Of a DNA stretch of 64,000 nucleotides, positions 3,001 through 59,654 are shown piece after piece. The stretch is taken from assembly GCA_030690415.1 (NCBI GenBank), contig JAUYGZ010000019.1:62001-126000 (forward strand), given 5' to 3'. The notes below the pieces were generated by a model, which was not told where the DNA came from, ran no database searches, and saw only the letters and a list, made by a program, of their open reading frames with translations. Position numbers and translations under genes: made by a program. Position 1 is the stretch's first letter. Each line of letters opens with the position of its first letter. The stretch is from a bacterium. Lineage in GTDB: Bacteria; Patescibacteriota; Gracilibacteria; JAUYGZ01.

Positions 3001-3687
3001 CCCGCTGAATCAGTGATCCGGACGATCGATCCTGAAGAACGCTCAGTACAATCGGAAATCAAATCCGAAAATCATTTCGAACTGACCTTCCCCGACGAAC
3101 CCGAAACCCCTACACAGGCTCCTGAGCCCTCAAGCCTCTCCACAGACCTTTTCACCGACATCAAATCCCCCATCCTCAGAGAAGCCGTTGATTACCTGGT
3201 CAAGCTCAACATCATTAGCGGATACGACGACAACACCTTCCGCCCCAGCGCCACCATCAATAGAGCCGAAGCCCTCAAAATCATCTTCCTCAGCCTCGGC
3301 GAATCCATAACCGACAACCTACCCCCTACAACCGACAACCTTTTTCCCGATGTCAACAAATCCGAATGGTTCGCTCCCTATATCCAACAAGCCAAAACGA
3401 AAGGCATCATCTCCGGATATCCGGATGGAACCTTTCACCCAGGCCAGGAAGTGAACAAGGCTGAATTTATCAAAATGGCCATGAGCGCACAGAGCAGCTA
3501 CAGCGAGCCAACTGATTTCCTCAGTGCCATGCTGCAGTACTCCGATCTGGATTCAAGCCAATGGTACATGCCTTACATCACCTTCGCCGTGAACCACGGC
3601 CTCCTCGACAACACCAAAAAACTCCACCCCACGGATGGCATGACCAGAGGCGACGCCGCGATGATCATCTACCGCCTGCTGCGGTAA
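1..3687 (+). CDS. SLH-domain surface protein (5' end outside window)
   Basis: The reading frame is open from base 1, so the start lies upstream; the first internal GTG at 355 is not a convincing start. The visible part is 1228 residues. It ends in three S-layer homology repeats (about residues 1050-1100, 1115-1162 and 1180-1228) with the family pattern FTDI...GYDDNTFRP...NRAEALK, then FPDV...GYPDGTFHPG...NKAEFIK and YSDL...MTRGDAAMIIYR. SLH repeats usually anchor exported proteins to secondary cell-wall polymers. The middle has a Pro/Asn/Thr-rich linker near residues 240-275 and long beta-rich stretches without a recognised domain. No catalytic motif was seen. Likely a cell-envelope structural or adhesion protein. 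Confidence 0.85.
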   Translation, partial: DSLKPRSLHVKQQTGTQDKEFLSEQTVRLISALYNDIKNEESFQFDYTREDGNYDTSGIAIVSSLQAGSITRSNRRQIITVQGENLSYETLLKSDDCAQIAVKYGSSAKFEFVCLLKKVSVAEYQVVDSSKGNELHKKSIDIREVYDVTVKDSPEKGFLHIFVTGVNLEKTTLASSTNCKTLTILHAPSTSELTFLCEENFGSFSKPDKISLQISSQDNFPLFNSSVPIGEELKFSSPTPMSLINNPTSPGNPTIPNTTNIPGNPSTSGEMTPLTDLLTVDCGKIPNNELFIGECKVYSNFMREGHGTFSLDMPNLIAAIDASFDVTLSKQLDQQTSIMPSGLRINPMSGKGLVIVDMKNANMLINGEFKGLGFEVQDVLGYPFDFDLYDFNGQFVAGIPSFSLSQSRADSALVIGIGEVSGPQIVKLKGRGKEIQEAIEKEIAKLNKDLNQKKIELGAKLVGSIENSTLKKLARVSYIKILKALEIVPEEIAFFDNFDLVAKGKLKSEPFRPKSWGENQAWILEANLATINIDFSAHEGRLNIQGNALNSLSLFNNDILKADKGILNVGLDINLAEDNGRIDLDPVELRLPGDIATMNADAHVKQIFNPIELAIWGKVKSDLQIYGVDLAKAGAGFRYDPNTIYTVGDYSAKGLLQLEAQAQLVALLATGKAVFTSPKGSLLVTDIGGALDLDFLGYQKRIGDVLGRLRIGKEISACFNAITGSISFPIPFVSYLKTSGWFEDIEWLDKNLELQGGLSIEAALDLGSFSEDPKLKTIAMSGQGNNDTRIGLRYDNSRSWFTSFSLFNEQCTDAPDQSFFDEVLAKEETFVRPLASHPQPISSLIRSNSIVSSNPSPQLLTQAVEESEPTPNSFNTQWNTEGWKIIVVIENNENELVILDPQGNPLKLEENEFSVPGVWKFDNPTMFIIANEEEFKASGYQFAFVRNNNKEIKFSVSSYTGDKENSYLFEISNLGQSTNSLSFDTLDSQQKLTLNNTAISPAESVIRTIDPEERSVQSEIKSENHFELTFPDEPETPTQAPEPSSLSTDLFTDIKSPILREAVDYLVKLNIISGYDDNTFRPSATINRAEALKIIFLSLGESITDNLPPTTDNLFPDVNKSEWFAPYIQQAKTKGIISGYPDGTFHPGQEVNKAEFIKMAMSAQSSYSEPTDFLSAMLQYSDLDSSQWYMPYITFAVNHGLLDNTKKLHPTDGMTRGDAAMIIYRLLR

Positions 3688-11106: not shown

Positions 11107-11330
11107 GATATGAAATCAAAACTAAAAACCAATTCAGATGATGTCTCTGCAGGGCGTCTCTCATATCGGTTGGAGTTGTAGGAGTATCACTCAGGCGCGG
11201 GGTAAACCAAAGGAACTTTCCACACGGATAGGGCCTGTTTTCGTGTATCGGGATTCAGGACCGCCCTTCGCTTCGCGGGGTAAACCTCTCTTAAGAACTT
11301 AAGAACCTAACAACACTAACAACCTAAAAC

Positions 11331-11384
11331 CCTACAACCTACAACCTACAACCTACAACCTACAACCTACAACCTACAACCTAA
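11331..11384 (+). repeat. (CTACAAC)n tandem array in the gene leader
   Basis: About seven near-perfect units of the 7-mer AACCTAC end 27 bases before the surface-protein ATG at 11411. Degenerate units run back to about 11300. The 224 bases between the promoter and the array hold no ORF. The same 7-mer recurs ahead of uppP, rsmE and htpX. Confidence 0.85.
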
Positions 11385-11410: not shown

Positions 11411-14400
11411 ATGAAAAAGAAAAACACACACAAAACTCTCCGCGGATCAGTCGCCCTTTGGGCCGCGCTCGGAGCGTTCGTACTGGCACTCGCCGTGTCA
11501 GTGGTCATGACCTTCACGCAAGAGGGGTCGCAAGTGACAAAAAATTATTTGACGGCACAGCTGCTTCCTGCAGAATCCTGTGTCGCACCGGTTTACGGTG
11601 ATGGTACTGATGGAGCATTAACAGTTTCGTCTCTCAATACGGTGGTTAATGCCTCTACTCATTTGACCGCTAACGCGCCAATTGGTTCAACTAGTTTGGC
11701 GGTTTCCAGTTCCGCGTCTTTTTTAGTGGATGATGAAGTTCTTGTTCATCAGACACAAGGAGGTACCTATGGAACTTTTGAATACGTTCGTGTCAGTGGT
11801 GTGGGGGCTGGGTCTCTTACAGTCTCAGCATTGACGAAAGGGTTCACTTCAAATCCGGCCACTGCAAATACCGCGACGGCTGTGATTACCCAGGTGATCA
11901 AAGTCCCTCAATATACGACGGTCAATGTGCCGGCCGGGACTTCGATTGTTCCCGCAGCCTGGAATGGACTTACGGGAGGGATCTTAGCCTTTAGAGCGAC
12001 AGGAGATGTCACTCTGACAGGTGGTGGTAAGATTGATGCAGAAGGAAAAGGGTTTCGAGGAGGTGCCGGTGGACCTTGTTCAGCACTGAAAAATGGTTTG
12101 CAGGGAGAATCTCCTCGTGGAAGAGGTGTCCAATCAACGAGCGCCAATGTTGGTGGTGGTGGTGGTGGGCATGGTGATACTGGATCTTGCGGCGGCGCCG
12201 GTGGAGCCGGTGCAGGGCATGCTTTGACTGGGACTCAGGGTTCAACCGAGACTTGTCATGGTTCCATCAGAGCTGCCGCTGGTACGGCGTATGGCACAGC
12301 TGATTTGAGTACATTCAATTTAGGTTCAGGAGGAGGAGGAGGTGGTACGGATAATACATGTGGCATTCATACCGGTGGCGCTGGAGGTAATGGTGGAGGA
12401 GCTGTGGCTATTTACGCGAATAACATTGTCAACGGAGGATTTATTACAACAAGCGGTCGATATGGTGCAAGTGCCGGAGGAGCTGCCGGAGGAAGTGGTG
12501 GATCCGGTTCAGGAGGATCTCTTATTCTTAAAGGTAATTTCCTGGATTTACACTTCGCTCATGTGAAGAGTCAGGGTGGCCTATCTAATCAGACATATTG
12601 GTATGGTGGTGCCGGTAGTGACGGTCGATTAGCTCTTGAATATACTCGTTATAACGGCTCTACTTCTCCTAATAACGCCTCATTGTCACCCCTTTGTTCG
12701 ACGATTTGTAGTGACGGCTATGTGCTTGATCTGGAGCAATGTGACGATGGCAACCTCACGCCTGGTGACGGATGTAATGCGAGCTGTCAGACGGAGCCGG
12801 TGTGTCAGGATCCGATAAATATGGTGAGCTGGTGGAAAGCTGAAGGTGACACTGTTGATAGTGAAGGTGTAAATAATGGGGCATTGGGTAATGGTGCCAC
12901 ATTTGCTTCAGGGAAAGAGGGGCAAGCCTTTAGTTTTGACGGAGTGAATGATTTTGTGGGAGTTGGGAATAATCCTTCCCTTAACTTTACTTCGACGATG
13001 TCCGCGGAAGCCTGGATAAATCCTAGTGCGTATCCGGTTACTCCCAACGTACAAGCACCAATTATTTCGAAAACTTTAACATATTATTTTGAGCTGTCGC
13101 CAGCGGGTAAGCTCTTGGTATATACCTATGGCACATCTCCACAGGCTTGGTTTACATCAACGTCTTCAGTGCCCCTCAATACCTGGAGTCATGTTGTCGT
13201 GACGTATGGTGGGGGCCAGTTGAAAATATATATCAATGGTGTATTAGATATTTCTCAGGCAAGGACGGGAAACATTGCTGTCAATACTGCCAATCAGGCA
13301 GCTATTGGAGCAGTTGGACTTGGTAGCAGCGGTGCTGTAGCAAATAGGAATTTCATTGGACGTATTGATGAGGTGCGGGTTTATAGTCGGGTACTAGATC
13401 CTGCTGAGATTCAAACTAATTTTGAAGGTTGTGTTGTTTGTGGTAATGGAATAGTTCAGTCTGGAGAGACTTGCGATGATGGGAATACTACTCCTGGCGA
13501 TGGCTGCGACGCGAGCTGTCAGATCGAATTTGGGGCGCCGGATGAGGATAGTGATGGAGTAGATGATGGTGATGATCTCTGCCCTGGGACGGCAGCTGCC
13601 GCTGTTGTTGATGTCAATGGATGTAGCGATGCCCAGGTGGATGCCGATGGGGATGGATACTGTGCTCCCGGTGCGCCTTCAGCAGGTCCCGGCGGATGTA
13701 CCGGTATTGACTGTAATGATGGTGATATGACGATCAATCCGGGAGCCAGCGATGCTTCCTGTGATGGTGTCGATCAAAATTGCAGCGGAGCAAATGATGA
13801 AGGATACGCCTCTGTGCCAACGTCCTGTGGAGTAGGAGCTTGTGGAGACACGGGAGCGACTTCATGTGTGGCGGGAACAGTTCAAGACTCCTGTAGTCCT
13901 GGCACACCTGCGGCAGACGACAGTTCTTGTAATGGTATCGACGATGATTGTAACGGTGCAACTGATGAGGACTATCTGAGTTCGCCGACATCCTGTGGAG
14001 TGGGAGAATGTGGAGCGAGTGGAACGCTGAGCTGTGTGGGAGGTAGCGAGGTGGATAGCTGTACTGAGGGCTCACCTGCTACAGAGGTCTGTACCGGAGG
14101 TCTTGATGAAGACTGTGATGGACTCACCGATGCGGCTGATACCGCGGAATGTGCGGATACGGATAATGATGGAGTCCTTGATAATGCCGACAACTGTCCC
14201 CTGACACCAAATCCTTCTCAGGCAGATGCCGATGAGGATGGAGCAGGAGACGCGTGTGACACGCTGACCGTGATCGATGAAAATGATACGCCGGTGCAGT
14301 TCTATACGTACAAGCCCTTTGGGGAAAATGTGGAGGATCTGGAGTACAAGGTCTTTGTCGATCCGGGAGCGGTTGCTGAAATCGCGCCGGTGTATGATGG

Positions 14401-35194: not shown

Positions 35195-35770
35195 ATGGAA
35201 CCCTTCATAGCCCTTCTTCTCATCCTCGGTATCGTCGTCCTTATCGGCGTGGTCTACTACAACAAGATCGTCGGACTCAAAATTCGCGTAGGCGAAGGCT
35301 GGAGCGACATCCAAGTTCAGCTCAAACGAAGGCACGACCTCATCGGAAACCTCGTGGAAACGGTCAAGGGATACGCGACTCATGAAAAAGAAACCCTCGA
35401 CAAGGTCGTCCAGGCAAGAAACACTGCCAAACAGGCAGAAGGACAAGACTCTGCCACCATTCAGTCCGCGGAACGAATGCTGAGCTCAGCGCTTTCCGGG
35501 CTAAAAATCAACGCCTTAGCGGAAGCCTATCCTGATCTTAAAGCCAACACCAACTTCCTACAGCTTCAGGCCGAACTGGCTGACACAGAAAACAAGATCG
35601 GCGCTTCACGAAGGTTTTATAACACCACCGTCAGAGATCTGAATACCATCATCGAGCAGTTCCCCGGAAACCTCTTCAAGGGGATGGCCAAAGCCGAACC
35701 TGCCAAATTCTTCGAGCTGGATGAAGACAAGGCGAAGGAGATACAAGAGCCACCAAAAGTTTCATTCTAG
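35195..35770 (+). CDS. lemA: LemA family protein
   Basis: 191 residues with an N-terminal membrane helix (FIALLLILGIVVLIGVVYY) and the family's helical ectodomain: VGEGWSDIQVQLKRRHDLI, ETVKGYATHEKETLDKV, LKANTNFLQLQAELADTE, and ASRRFYNTTVRDLNTIIEQFP. The tail ends with FFELDEDKAKEIQEPPKVSF as in typical LemA. Role uncertain; LemA genes usually sit directly before an M48 (HtpX-like) protease gene. Here the pair is separated by an inserted four-helix-bundle element of about 490 bp. Confidence 0.95.
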   Translation: MEPFIALLLILGIVVLIGVVYYNKIVGLKIRVGEGWSDIQVQLKRRHDLIGNLVETVKGYATHEKETLDKVVQARNTAKQAEGQDSATIQSAERMLSSALSGLKINALAEAYPDLKANTNFLQLQAELADTENKIGASRRFYNTTVRDLNTIIEQFPGNLFKGMAKAEPAKFFELDEDKAKEIQEPPKVSF

Positions 35771-35778
35771 AGCTCAAG

Positions 35779-36267
35779 GGTTGTCGGTTATCGGGAGTAG
35801 GTTGTAGACGGTATTAGAAAAAATGTTAGAAAAGCTGCTGAGAGAGCCTATTCAACATCCTCATGACACCATCCAACAATTCATCAACACGGGAGCTATC
35901 TTGCACAAACCCCAAACGCTTAGATAATTCAACCTGAGTCTCCAATTCAGCCCCTGAAGCAAAAGCAGTCACAACAAAATGACGATAATCCTTACGAGTT
36001 CCTCTCCTATTTCCTTCGGCAATATTAGATGGTATCGAAACCACCGATCTTCTCATCTGTGAACTTAAACCATATACTTCTTCCTTCGGGAAGTTTCTTG
36101 TTAGATCATAAATAGCAAGAACCAAGTCCATCGATTTTTGCCATACCATCAAATTTTTATAAGATAACAACGCCATATTCATTCATTACATCATAAATCA
36201 AAGAAACATTATCATATACTCAAATACATAAAAATAGACCACAACCTACTCCCGACAACCGACAACC
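35779..36267. repeat. inverted-repeat-bounded four-helix-bundle element 1
   Basis: 27-bp ends at 35779-35805 (GGTTGTCGGTTATCGGGAGT...) and 36241-36267 are reverse complements with a single mismatch. They enclose one minus-strand four-helix-bundle gene between lemA and htpX. No target duplication is clear. The right end closes 4 bases before the htpX ATG. Confidence 0.85.
35826..36182 (-). CDS. four-helix-bundle protein (23S rRNA intervening-sequence / S23 family), copy 1
   Basis: 118 residues with the family pattern: NLMVWQKSMDLVLAIYDLTR, FPKEEVYGLSSQMRRSVVSI, PSNIAEGNRRGTRKDY, and a last helix AELETQVELSKRL. This family is encoded inside intervening sequences of some 23S rRNA genes and is related to the avd accessory protein of diversity-generating retroelements; its biochemical role is unclear. 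No rRNA gene or reverse transcriptase is near. It is the only gene in element 1. Confidence 0.95.
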   Translation of the reverse strand: MNMALLSYKNLMVWQKSMDLVLAIYDLTRNFPKEEVYGLSSQMRRSVVSIPSNIAEGNRRGTRKDYRHFVVTAFASGAELETQVELSKRLGFVQDSSRVDELLDGVMRMLNRLSQQLF

Positions 36268-36271
36268 TATT

Positions 36272-37177
36272 ATGAACATCTATCAGCAAATCAGCTCCAA
36301 CAACCGCCAAACGGTCCTTATCCTCCTGCTTTTCACGGCAGTGGTGTTGGGGATCGCTTTTGTAGCCTTCCTGTTCCTGGAAGTCCCCACCGAATTGTTT
36401 CCCAGCGTGTCCCTGGCTATTTTTGGGATTATCTTCGTCTGGACCCTCATTTCTTATTACTGGGGCGACAAGATGATTCTCAGCTTCGTCGGAGCGAAGC
36501 CGATCAGTCGGCAAAGCCATTTCGATGTCTACAACCTCGTCGAAAACCTGTCCATCACCGCGGGACTTCCGAACCCGACCGTCTACGTGATCGAAGACGA
36601 CAGCCTGAACGCCTTCGCCACAGGGCGGAACCCCAAGCACAGCGTCGTCTGCCTGACCACGGGCATCGTAAAGAAACTGAATAAACGCCAGCTCGAAGCG
36701 GTCATTGCCCATGAAATGGGACACATCGCGAACTATGATATACGCCTTCAACTCATCCTCATCACGGTCGTCGGACTCATCGCCATGACAGGAGAGATCC
36801 TGATGCGGGTTCGAGGGAAGAATACGGGAAGCATCGCGCTCGCGGGACTCGTCATCTACATCATCGGTGCCCCCCTTCTCCGCCTCATCAGCCTTGCACT
36901 ATCACGAAACAGAGAATACCTGGCTGACGCGACCGGATCCTTTTATACCCGAGACCCCGAAGCCCTCGCGGAGGCTTTGCAAGAAATCTCGAAAGACTCC
37001 CGCGTCGAATCCGCCGATCGCATGAACTCCGCCGCCCACCTCTTCATCGAGAATCCCAAAAAAGAACCGGACCTCGACAGTCCCAAAAAAATCAAAGGAC
37101 AATCATTTCTGACCCGGATCACCTCAACCCATCCGCCCATCCTGGAGCGAATAAAAAGGCTCAAAGGACATGAGTAG
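36272..37177 (+). CDS. htpX: M48 family membrane zinc protease, HtpX-like
   Basis: 301 residues. Two N-terminal membrane helices (VLILLLFTAVVLGIAFVAFL and a second near residues 45-65), the zinc motif VIAHEMGH (His147, Glu148, His151), two further hydrophobic stretches (about 160-210), and the third-ligand motif LSRNREYLADAT. The C-terminal STHPPILERIKRL is typical. HtpX clears misfolded membrane proteins. It probably worked next to LemA before the intervening element arrived. Confidence 0.95.
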   Translation: MNIYQQISSNNRQTVLILLLFTAVVLGIAFVAFLFLEVPTELFPSVSLAIFGIIFVWTLISYYWGDKMILSFVGAKPISRQSHFDVYNLVENLSITAGLPNPTVYVIEDDSLNAFATGRNPKHSVVCLTTGIVKKLNKRQLEAVIAHEMGHIANYDIRLQLILITVVGLIAMTGEILMRVRGKNTGSIALAGLVIYIIGAPLLRLISLALSRNREYLADATGSFYTRDPEALAEALQEISKDSRVESADRMNSAAHLFIENPKKEPDLDSPKKIKGQSFLTRITSTHPPILERIKRLKGHE

Positions 37178-37663: not shown

Positions 37664-38506
37664 TCAGGAGCTGGAGTGAAGAAGGAACCAATACCCATTT
37701 ATCATCAATAAATAGCCAACGAAAACCCACAGGCTCCTTTTTCTCAAAAATTTCAACATCCCATAAATGCAGACAAGACTCACCAACATGGAGCTTCCGA
37801 AACCAACCGCCAAGGCTCCTCCGCTTACCATCTGGCCTCCATTGACGGCCCCGAACAGATCCTTCGAAAGAAATATCGTCGCCCCTGCAATAGCCGGAAT
37901 CGCCATCAAAAAAGCAAACTTGGCCGCCGCCTCACGCTCCAGCCCACCCAAAAGCCCCCCCACAATAGTCGACCCACTCCTGGAAATCCCCGGAATAATC
38001 GCCATGACCTGAAAAAATCCCATGAGAAGTGCGGTCTTCAGAGAGTTCATTTGGGTTTCTTTGCGTTTTCCAAAGACTTCTGCCAAAACCAGCAGCACGG
38101 CCGTCACTCCCATCATACCGATAACCACCGAAGCCGAACGAAAATACTGTTCGATCACCTCTTTCAAAAAAGGAGCCAAAAAGACCACCGGAAGCGTCGC
38201 GACGATCAGGTACCAGACCTGCTCTCTCGGATTATCCGGATTCCTCAGCTCCTGTCGGCCCTCCGGCTTCAGCATTTTCTTCATATCAATCCAGAGTCCC
38301 TTCGCCATCCCCACCAAAGTACCCCGGAAGTACAATATCAGTGCCATCAGAGTCCCCGCGTGAAGCACCACATCGAAGCTGAGCAATCCTTCAACATTGA
38401 GCCCCAAAAACGTTTCAGCAAGAACTAAATGTCCTGAGCTGCTAATCGGAAGGAACTCAGTGGCACCCTGGATGATACCGAGAATGAGGGCTTGTAATAA
38501 GGTCAT
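37664..38506 (-). CDS. uppP: undecaprenyl-diphosphatase UppP (BacA)
   Basis: Recycles the lipid carrier undecaprenyl-PP to undecaprenyl-P at the membrane. The 280 residues contain the two diagnostic blocks: GATEFLPISSSGHLVLAE (about residues 14-31) and IPGISRSGSTIVGGLL (about 167-182), plus FDVVLHAGTLMA, and eight membrane helices. The ATG at 38506 directly follows a run of the CTACAAC repeat. It supplies carrier to the sugar transferase at 31.4 kb and to peptidoglycan synthesis. Confidence 0.96.
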   Translation of the reverse strand: MTLLQALILGIIQGATEFLPISSSGHLVLAETFLGLNVEGLLSFDVVLHAGTLMALILYFRGTLVGMAKGLWIDMKKMLKPEGRQELRNPDNPREQVWYLIVATLPVVFLAPFLKEVIEQYFRSASVVIGMMGVTAVLLVLAEVFGKRKETQMNSLKTALLMGFFQVMAIIPGISRSGSTIVGGLLGGLEREAAAKFAFLMAIPAIAGATIFLSKDLFGAVNGGQMVSGGALAVGFGSSMLVSLVCIYGMLKFLRKRSLWVFVGYLLMINGYWFLLHSSS

Positions 38507-38664
38507 AGGTTGTAGGTTGTAGGTTGTAGGTTGTAAGTGGTGAGTAGCAGATAACTCTCAAGAATCGATTATCTGAAGTAGACTTGTATATCCTCTTTCA
38601 CCCTGTGTAGTCTATCGAAGACCCCTCATAACTACAACCTACTCCCTACCACCTACCCCCTCCC
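38507..38664. repeat. facing low-complexity repeats between uppP and rsmE
   Basis: GGTTGTA units (38507-38536) face ACAACCTACTCCC and related units (38634-38663) across a 97-base centre without any gene. ACAACCTACTCCC is shared exactly with the right end of four-helix-bundle element 1 (36241-36253). It looks like an empty bracket of the same repeat family. Confidence 0.7.
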
Positions 38665-54180: not shown

Positions 54181-54569
54181 AAGTTGGGAGTTTGGAGATT
54201 GGAGTTCGGAGTAAGTTTCGACTCAAGAGCTGATAACATTTTTCGAATCTCAAGAATAAATGCGTGACATTGTTTATATAATTCAAAATTCTTGAGATAC
54301 TTTAAGTTTTCAGCGATAAAAAGCTGAGTTTCCAGTTCTGCGGAAGAGGCTTTAGAATTTCTCAAAAAATAAATAAAATCTTTATTTGTTCTTCGCTGAC
54401 TCCCTTCAGCAATATTTGAAGGTATCGAAACTGCAGATCTTCTCATTTGATTTGTAATCCCATAAACCTCAATTTTTGGGAAATCTTCTGTCAGCTGATA
54501 AACACATGTCACGAGCTGCATGGCTTTCTGCCAAACAATAAGCTTTTGATAATTTGACTCCATACTCAA
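54174..54569 (-). CDS. four-helix-bundle protein (S23 family), copy 2
   Basis: 131 residues: KLIVWQKAMQLVTCVYQLTE, FPKIEVYGITNQMRRSAVSI, PSNIAEGSQRRTNKDF and a C-terminal helix KASSAELETQLFIAENLKYL. The tail SKLTPNSNLQTPNLS is not conserved: it is the translated left repeat of element 2, and the stop lies at the tatD start. As in copy 1, this protein family is known from 23S rRNA intervening sequences. Confidence 0.95.
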   Translation of the reverse strand: MSMESNYQKLIVWQKAMQLVTCVYQLTEDFPKIEVYGITNQMRRSAVSIPSNIAEGSQRRTNKDFIYFLRNSKASSAELETQLFIAENLKYLKNFELYKQCHAFILEIRKMLSALESKLTPNSNLQTPNLS

Positions 54570-54612
54570 ACCTTAAATTTGTCTCCAAACTCCGAACTCC
54601 AATCTCCGAACT
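54189..54612. repeat. inverted-repeat-bounded four-helix-bundle element 2
   Basis: 24-bp ends at 54189-54212 and 54589-54612 are reverse complements with one mismatch (arms contain GGAGATTGGAGTTCGGAGT). They enclose the copy-2 gene between rny and tatD. The right end overlaps the rny stop codon by two bases. The repeat chemistry (AACTCC units) differs from elements 1 and 3. Confidence 0.85.
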
Positions 54613-59078: not shown

Positions 59079-59086
59079 AGGACGAT

Positions 59087-59654
59087 AAGGATGATAAAGA
59101 CGATAAAGACTATAAGGATTCTTTCAATCTGAAACAAATCAGAAAGCAATCAAGTATAAAATATTGCATATACTGAATATCATACTTTATAAAAAGAGAG
59201 ATTCTATAATGCAAAGAGATGAACATCTACGATCGTTCATTTAGAAGACTGATAGTTTGGAGAGAGGCCAAAAAACTCACTATCAACATATACCAAATGA
59301 CCAAGCGATTTCCTAAAGAAGAAAAATACAGCATGACAAATCAGATGAGAAGAGCAGCAAATTCTATCATGGCCAACATTGCTGAAGGAAATGAGAGAAA
59401 ATCAAAGAACGATTGCTGTCGATTCCTTGAGGTTGCGCGGGGATCACTCGTCGAGGTCGATTGTTTCATTGATTTAGCTTATGAACTTACCTATCTTTCT
59501 GATACCGATTTCAAGACTCTTTCTGACCAGATAGCAAAAACAGGATATCTTTTGCATCAGTTTTCAGAAGCACAAGAACGAAATCCAATGAGAAAATAAA
59601 TAAATCCATATCATCATTATCATCCTTATCATCTTTATAGTCCTTATCATCCTT
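59087..59654. repeat. inverted-repeat-bounded four-helix-bundle element 3
   Basis: 33-base ends at 59087-59119 and 59622-59654 match as inverted repeats at 29 of 33 positions; both are built of 9-base GATAAGGAT/GATAAAGAC units. They enclose copy 3 between holB and the phosphofructokinase gene. The left arm abuts the holB start and the right arm ends five bases before the next ATG. Confidence 0.8.
59219..59599 (+). CDS. four-helix-bundle protein (S23 family), copy 3
   Basis: 126 residues: RLIVWREAKKLTINIYQMTK, FPKEEKYSMTNQMRRAANSI, MANIAEGNERKSKNDCCRFL, then GSLVEVDCFIDLAYEL. Diverged from copies 1 and 2, so the three are not recent duplicates. It is on the + strand, while copies 1 and 2 are on the minus strand. 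Confidence 0.95.
   Translation: MNIYDRSFRRLIVWREAKKLTINIYQMTKRFPKEEKYSMTNQMRRAANSIMANIAEGNERKSKNDCCRFLEVARGSLVEVDCFIDLAYELTYLSDTDFKTLSDQIAKTGYLLHQFSEAQERNPMRK

Follow-up and report, generated by a model that had tools for sequence, protein, structure and literature searches.

The window, a 64,000-nucleotide stretch of DNA from a bacterium of the Gracilibacteria (Patescibacteriota), carries lemA followed by an htpX-like gene for an M48 peptidase, and the two are separated by a compact unit of two inverted arms and one gene (Table 1). This sole enclosed gene is oriented antisense to lemA-htpX. Its product matched the 23S_rRNA_IVP family (hereafter IVP) over its full length with 120 bits, and the four helix bundle model TIGR02436 with 116 bits. 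The only solved relative of the protein is Xcc0516 of Xanthomonas, which forms a homopentamer of four-helix bundles (PMC4990558). An initial annotation had described ends inverted at 26 of 27 positions and enclosing a four-helix-bundle gene alone, and this description was confirmed. Beyond it, the arms were found to be tandem arrays whose sequence differs between units and matches within a unit, and the window was found to contain a gene-less unit.

The view that lemA and the M48 gene are normally adjacent also held. They were found side by side, without the unit, in two relatives of the same family, G001 (HtpX 68% identical) and G002 (63%), as well as in less closely related members of the class. 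The empty site of the window unit is defined at the level of genes, in the same-family relatives, and not at that of nucleotides. A separate hairpin occupies the spacer before lemA, and a loop of similar GC-rich appearance adjoins the IVP unit on contig C8 (L012).

Table 1. Positions of IVP units, a gene-less unit and neighbouring features in the window
Feature	Position	Strand	Remarks
Hairpin in spacer before lemA	35024-35052/35106-35134		29 nt, 93% complementary, 53-nt loop
lemA, host flank	35195-35770	+	PF04011; TAG stop 8 bp upstream of left arm
35.8-kb unit, left arm	35779-35805	+	GGTTGTC GGTTATC GGGAGTA GGTTGT; period 7, about 3.9 units
IVP/S23 family gene, 118 aa	35826-36182	-	PF05635, TIGR02436; solved relative 2gsc (Xcc0516)
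35.8-kb unit, right arm	36241-36267	-	reverse complement of left arm at 26/27 positions
htpX-like M48 peptidase gene, host flank	36272-37177	+	PF01435; ATG 4 bp past right arm
ORF left of gene-less unit, 280 aa	37664-38506	-	uppP-like by eye
Gene-less miniature unit, left arm	38506-38529	+	TAGGTTG x3.4; cognate to arms of 35.8-kb unit
Gene-less miniature unit, right arm	38632-38655	-	inverted partner of 38506-38529
ORF right of gene-less unit, 237 aa	38665-39378	+	rsmE-like by eye
Second IVP gene, 131 aa	54174-54569	-	C-terminal tail encoded by the array itself (LTPNSNLQTPNLS)
Second unit, left array	54182-54212	+	AGTTTGG x4.4; inverted-repeat part 54189-54212
Second unit, right array	54583-54612	-	inverted-repeat part 54589-54612
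Third unit, left array	59079-59118	+	period 9, x4.4; inverted-repeat part 59087-59119
Third IVP gene, 126 aa	59219-59599	+	profile match
Third unit, right array	59604-59654	-	period 9, x5.7; inverted-repeat part 59622-59654

Further IVP units and solo arrays in the genome

The two additional units that the initial annotation had placed at 54.2 and 59.1 kb are real, with arms matching at 23 of 24 and 29 of 33 positions, respectively. Arm periods in the three units of the window are 7, 7 and 9; the other two IVP copies above the cut-off, which lie on contigs C6 and C8, show periods of 7 and 8. The array sequence is specific to each unit, and within one unit both arms agree, down to the order of variant repeats. 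All five above-cut-off copies fall in separate parts of the IVP protein tree, which points to separate arrivals rather than local copying.

Two weak relatives of PF05635 were also detected in this genome, L013 on contig C29 (24.5 bits) and L014 on contig C3 (23.3 bits), both below the cut-off. No inverted arms comparable to those of the IVP units were found at either locus; these relatives are possibly no longer mobile, or have another function.

Heptamer arrays without a partner, AACCGAC-like and akin to the arms of the 35.8-kb unit, were observed at positions 3309-3340 of the window (C27:65314-65340) and at L005 (C30:30960-30986). The former lies in frame within an ORF of 1110 aa that ends in SLH-like repeats (...ITDNLPPTTDNLFPDV...). 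Additionally, an unpaired array of approximately 11 AACCTAC heptamers at 11304-11383 stands directly upstream of an ORF of 2066 aa that begins at 11411.

Inverted arrays accompany IVP genes

As an own-genome control, 473 ORFs of 90 to 160 aa in 443 kb were examined for inverted repeats with a score of at least 14, no more than 250 bp away on each side. Such arms were carried by four ORFs, and these were exactly the four IVP genes present there, as expected of the recurrent system, rather than chance, that had been proposed. In a set of 80 loci from multiple phyla, arms with a score of at least 14 accompanied 50 of 75 testable IVP genes compared with 3 of 1552 displaced windows at the same loci; since the loci were chosen by similarity to this genome's proteins, close relatives are over-represented in these figures. 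Strong arms were likewise present at 23 of 36 IVP genes in a class-level set (0 of 208 controls) and at 38 of 49 in a further set of class members and plasmids (4 of 1399 controls), five loci being common to these two sets. Far from being no commoner than at random genes, the outcome named in advance as contrary to the proposal, strong inverted arms occurred in 111 of 160 pooled IVP tests against 7 of 3159 displaced controls. Approximately one third of IVP genes were without strong arms at the threshold used. PF05635 genes themselves are common in bacteria; within this class, 158 of the 353 genomes contain them.

The elements have a median length of 454 bp from arm to arm. Among 112 elements the arm period was 7 in 75 (14-mers counted as doubled heptamers), 8 in 16 and 9 in 13, and each arm usually held four to five copies regardless of period. 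The inward-reading strand of the arms contains little C and much A, G and T; AG was present in 90 of 107 repeat units compared with 68 in shuffled units. Arm sequence tracks the IVP protein and not the host genome: mean arm similarity was 0.72 for cross-genome pairs with at least 70% protein identity, compared with 0.21 overall and 0.19 for pairs within a genome, and arm and protein similarity were correlated in a Mantel test (r 0.18, p 0.0005). Like arms were also seen at different sites in different cyanobacterial genera, as in L216 and L227 (AGCTTTT) or L224 and L225 (AGGGAAA/AGGGAAC). The most conserved residues of the IVP protein (P32, E35, Q42, R45, S49, N53, E56, G57 and E79) lie mostly in one central segment.

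Gene-less units match the IVP units of their own genome

Nine inverted pairs with periodic arms were found in the 443 kb; an IVP gene lies within four of them, and the other five have nothing between their arms. For four of the five gene-less units, the best arm match among 106 elements was an IVP unit of their own genome; the fifth ties for its best match with the 35.8-kb unit. This pairing of autonomous and gene-less forms is what would be expected of an IVP protein that works in trans on ends cognate to it.

A similar arrangement was found in Nostoc, where two gene-less units with TCAGGAG arms, one nested in the other (L226, 1730-2000), adjoin the IVP unit of L226. Among relatives of this locus, L235 has the outer gene-less unit only and L237 has neither. 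A candidate ATTTAA duplication at the L226 gene-less unit was dropped, as a near-repeat is already present in the empty site, from which 8 bp were lost.

Filled and empty sites

The empty sites in relatives that the initial annotation had suggested looking for were found, for pairs of plasmids at the DNA level and for the window unit at the gene level. Cyanobacterial plasmids with 90 to 98% DNA identity provided filled and empty pairs that differ by insertions of approximately 0.45 kb. On plasmid C of Trichormus variabilis (L215), GTAAT flanks the unit at either end, a clean 5-bp duplication, and the approximately 97% identical plasmids of Fremyella and Aulosira have a single GTAAT and no unit. 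The insertion is also present in Scytonema, there with fewer repeats, and a decayed remnant persists at this site in Nostoc C052. A homologue of the Trichormus unit lies at an unrelated site on plasmid a of Nostoc ATCC 53789 (L226), probably flanked by a 5-bp duplication of TTCTA, and this site is unoccupied in three other plasmids. Additional filled and empty pairs were found at a TraM-like locus, between cas10 and cmr3, between nrdB and nrdA, and at L262 and L263. Related elements occupy different sites. Nearest to the window unit are relatives in G245 and G246; their site lacks the unit in three congeners, and in two of these it carries other hairpins. Such hairpins at some "empty" sites in Patescibacteria count against the reading as a mobile element. 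Overall, the mobility of the IVP unit as DNA is well supported, and we regard it as highly probable.

The outcome at the target was not uniform. An 11-bp target replacement was seen at L263, some pairs show target deletions of 8 to 11 bp, and a general test for target-site duplication across 99 elements was negative (35% vs 34%). This varied outcome, together with the negative test, looks unlike that of a classical transposase with a fixed stagger.

In Nostoc edaphicum pNe_5 (L217), an IVP unit splits the genes for the beta and alpha subunits of ribonucleotide reductase, which are adjacent on a plasmid of Calothrix NIES-4105 (L220). IVP units also recur inside CRISPR-cas operons on cyanobacterial plasmids, at L216, L218 (between cas6 and cas4) and L223 (between cas10 and cmr3). 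Dolichospermum (L219) was considered as an exact empty site for the insertion between cas6 and cas4 and was rejected, its spacer holding a different, unrelated hairpin.

Searches for an enzyme and comparison with known systems

Profiles of four transposase and reverse transcriptase families (RVT_1, Y1_Tnp, rve and DDE_Tnp_1) gave no match in this genome, which is 98.8% complete and contains five units together with gene-less satellites; the same searches were positive in control genomes. The IVP protein has no recognisable catalytic domain. No defence model in PADLOC matched the three IVP proteins submitted, and no relative was found in phage records. In the open-access literature (bioRxiv and most subscription journals being outside the scope of the search), we found no function for PF05635 "four helix bundle" genes and no paper tying IVP genes to inverted repeat arrays.

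The IVP unit has terminal inverted repeats in common with classical IS and MITEs, along with filled and empty sites in relatives (at the gene level for the window unit); it further resembles MITEs and small IS in its short length and in the existence of autonomous and gene-less pairs. It differs in having degenerate arrays as ends where these elements have a fixed TIR, and in holding the IVP gene alone, in a genome without rve, DDE_Tnp_1 or Y1_Tnp, where a classical IS relies on a known transposase. As to the constant-length target-site duplication of the classical elements, the outcome was mixed: a clean 5 bp once, a probable 5 bp once, and none or deletions elsewhere. Avd, an accessory protein of diversity-generating retroelements, is a distant four-helix-bundle relative (bAvd, 24.1 bits with a cut-off of 40; Avd, 23 bits with a cut-off of 80); a diversity-generating retroelement, however, has a reverse transcriptase, and the RAYT/REP system a Y1 (TnpA-REP) transposase, whereas RVT_1 and Y1_Tnp are both absent here. 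Among the MITEs and small IS compared is BrickBuilt, which has an internal minisatellite (PMC4596501).

Intergenic arrays of period 7 have been described previously, as the STRRs of cyanobacteria and with the unit TAACTGA in Beggiatoaceae (PMC4679880) and GGGAATC in Xanthomonas and Nostoc (PMC4692102); neither of these two papers mentions S23, intervening-sequence or four-helix proteins. Such STRR-type heptamer repeats are like IVP arms in period, intergenic position and strain-specific sequence, and their mobility has been proposed, albeit unproven. Unlike these repeats as described, IVP arrays are paired, inverted and enclose an IVP gene.

Relation to rRNA intervening sequences

Intervening sequences (IVSs) of rRNA with an S23/IVP ORF are known from Leptospira. 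The initial annotation had interpreted the window unit as an IVS-like mobile unit that had moved into a spacer between protein genes. Mobility, recurrence and location outside rRNA all stand. A departure from rRNA is not supported, as an Rfam scan placed none of 58 IVP loci within an rRNA gene, and detected no rRNA in the window. In this sample, protein-gene spacers are thus the usual habitat and rRNA a special location. Most simply, the spacer form would be the general one, with the rRNA IVS as a special landing site.

IVP units have in common with rRNA IVSs the protein family, complementary ends, a single gene and a length of approximately 0.4 to 0.5 kb, and the ends of the window unit would be able to form a stem as in an IVS. 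They differ in lying outside rRNA, in the element-specific tandem arrays at their ends, in their gene-less satellites and in their filled and empty pairs at the DNA level. In the IVS of Coxiella, which RNase III excises, the S23 ORF is directly preceded by three heptamers in tandem (GACAGAT; PMC4990558). The 16S and 23S rRNA genes of CPR bacteria have IVP ORFs dispersed among several sites of insertion (PMC11270868).

Discussion

The IVP element is likely to be a small mobile DNA that combines a single gene of the IVP four-helix-bundle family with two inverted arrays, each of about four to five units 7 to 9 bp long, and for which the rRNA IVS is one location. Binding of the IVP protein to its cognate arms is probable, and we propose that it would involve one subunit per repeat, in keeping with the homopentamer formed by its homologue; the constant number of four to five copies would suit a ring of five subunits, each reading one repeat. 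Such a ring might hold both ends close to each other, whether these are double-stranded, single-stranded or hairpin DNA; the unit and its gene-less satellites could thereby move, either through a catalytic step of the IVP protein's own or through recruited host enzymes of repair or recombination. That the IVP protein drives the movement of the unit is plausible, if unproven, and we lean slightly towards it. Insertions would survive mainly at gene ends and in short spacers inside operons. The rRNA IVS would be an IVP element lodged in rRNA, whose paired ends happen to form a stem for RNase III.

Two alternatives would assign the movement to something other than the IVP protein. The unit could be a non-autonomous cassette that owes its movement to an unrelated host transposase acting in trans, with the IVP protein as a passenger or an arm-binding regulator. 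We consider this unlikely. The missing catalytic domain would be explained, as would the movement of gene-less units and the variable target outcome, but a nearly complete genome with five units and their satellites is devoid of all four enzyme families, the arms diversify with the IVP protein rather than with the host genome, and those in the 443 kb enclose IVP genes or nothing. Less probable again is an IVS acting at the level of RNA, in which RNase III would cut the paired arms from transcripts and spread would proceed through RNA or cDNA. The gene family is that of rRNA IVSs, the Coxiella IVS combines heptamers with RNase III excision (PMC4990558), and the whole 35.8-kb unit is predicted to fold as RNA into a long, strong stem (z -5.4). 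However, the suggestion of arms maintained for pairing at the RNA level found no support: arm mismatches show no excess of G-U-compatible changes (51 vs 76 pair-breaking transitions), leaving an RNA role of the stem unsupported, and the gene runs antisense to the lemA-htpX operon. The absence of RVT_1 from the genome and the lack of any rRNA location among the 58 loci also count against this alternative.

The remaining alternatives deny mobility altogether. A resident regulatory module, comprising an IVP gene with operator or terminator arrays that is inherited vertically, occasionally lost and not mobile, is very improbable. The arms could indeed be operators or bidirectional terminators, and many units lie directly at gene ends, but against this reading stand filled and empty pairs at 90 to 98% identity, homologous units at different sites, nested gene-less insertions and five unrelated IVP lineages in one genome. 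An artefact of common heptamer microsatellites that mirror one another by chance can practically be dismissed; partnerless solo arrays do exist in the window, yet the displaced-window controls and the ORF control within the 443 kb refute it.

With the IVP element taken as mobile DNA, the unit looks like an unrecognised kind of mobile element, present in many bacterial phyla. Tentatively, we extend this to a separate, autonomous class of mobile DNA, in which a pentameric ring, and not a DDE, Y1, serine or reverse transcriptase enzyme, may read inverted arrays, each subunit engaging one of about five short repeats, and drive both itself and gene-less satellites in many phyla; STRR-like heptamers may then be its debris and rRNA IVSs one landing site.

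The cognate arrays, gene-less satellites and empty sites give the PF05635 family a testable role. They also suggest where paired heptamer repeats in intergenic DNA originate, and the puzzle of the 23S rRNA IVS becomes a special case. Should the IVP protein indeed drive movement, mobility would here depend on a protein that has none of the known transposase folds.
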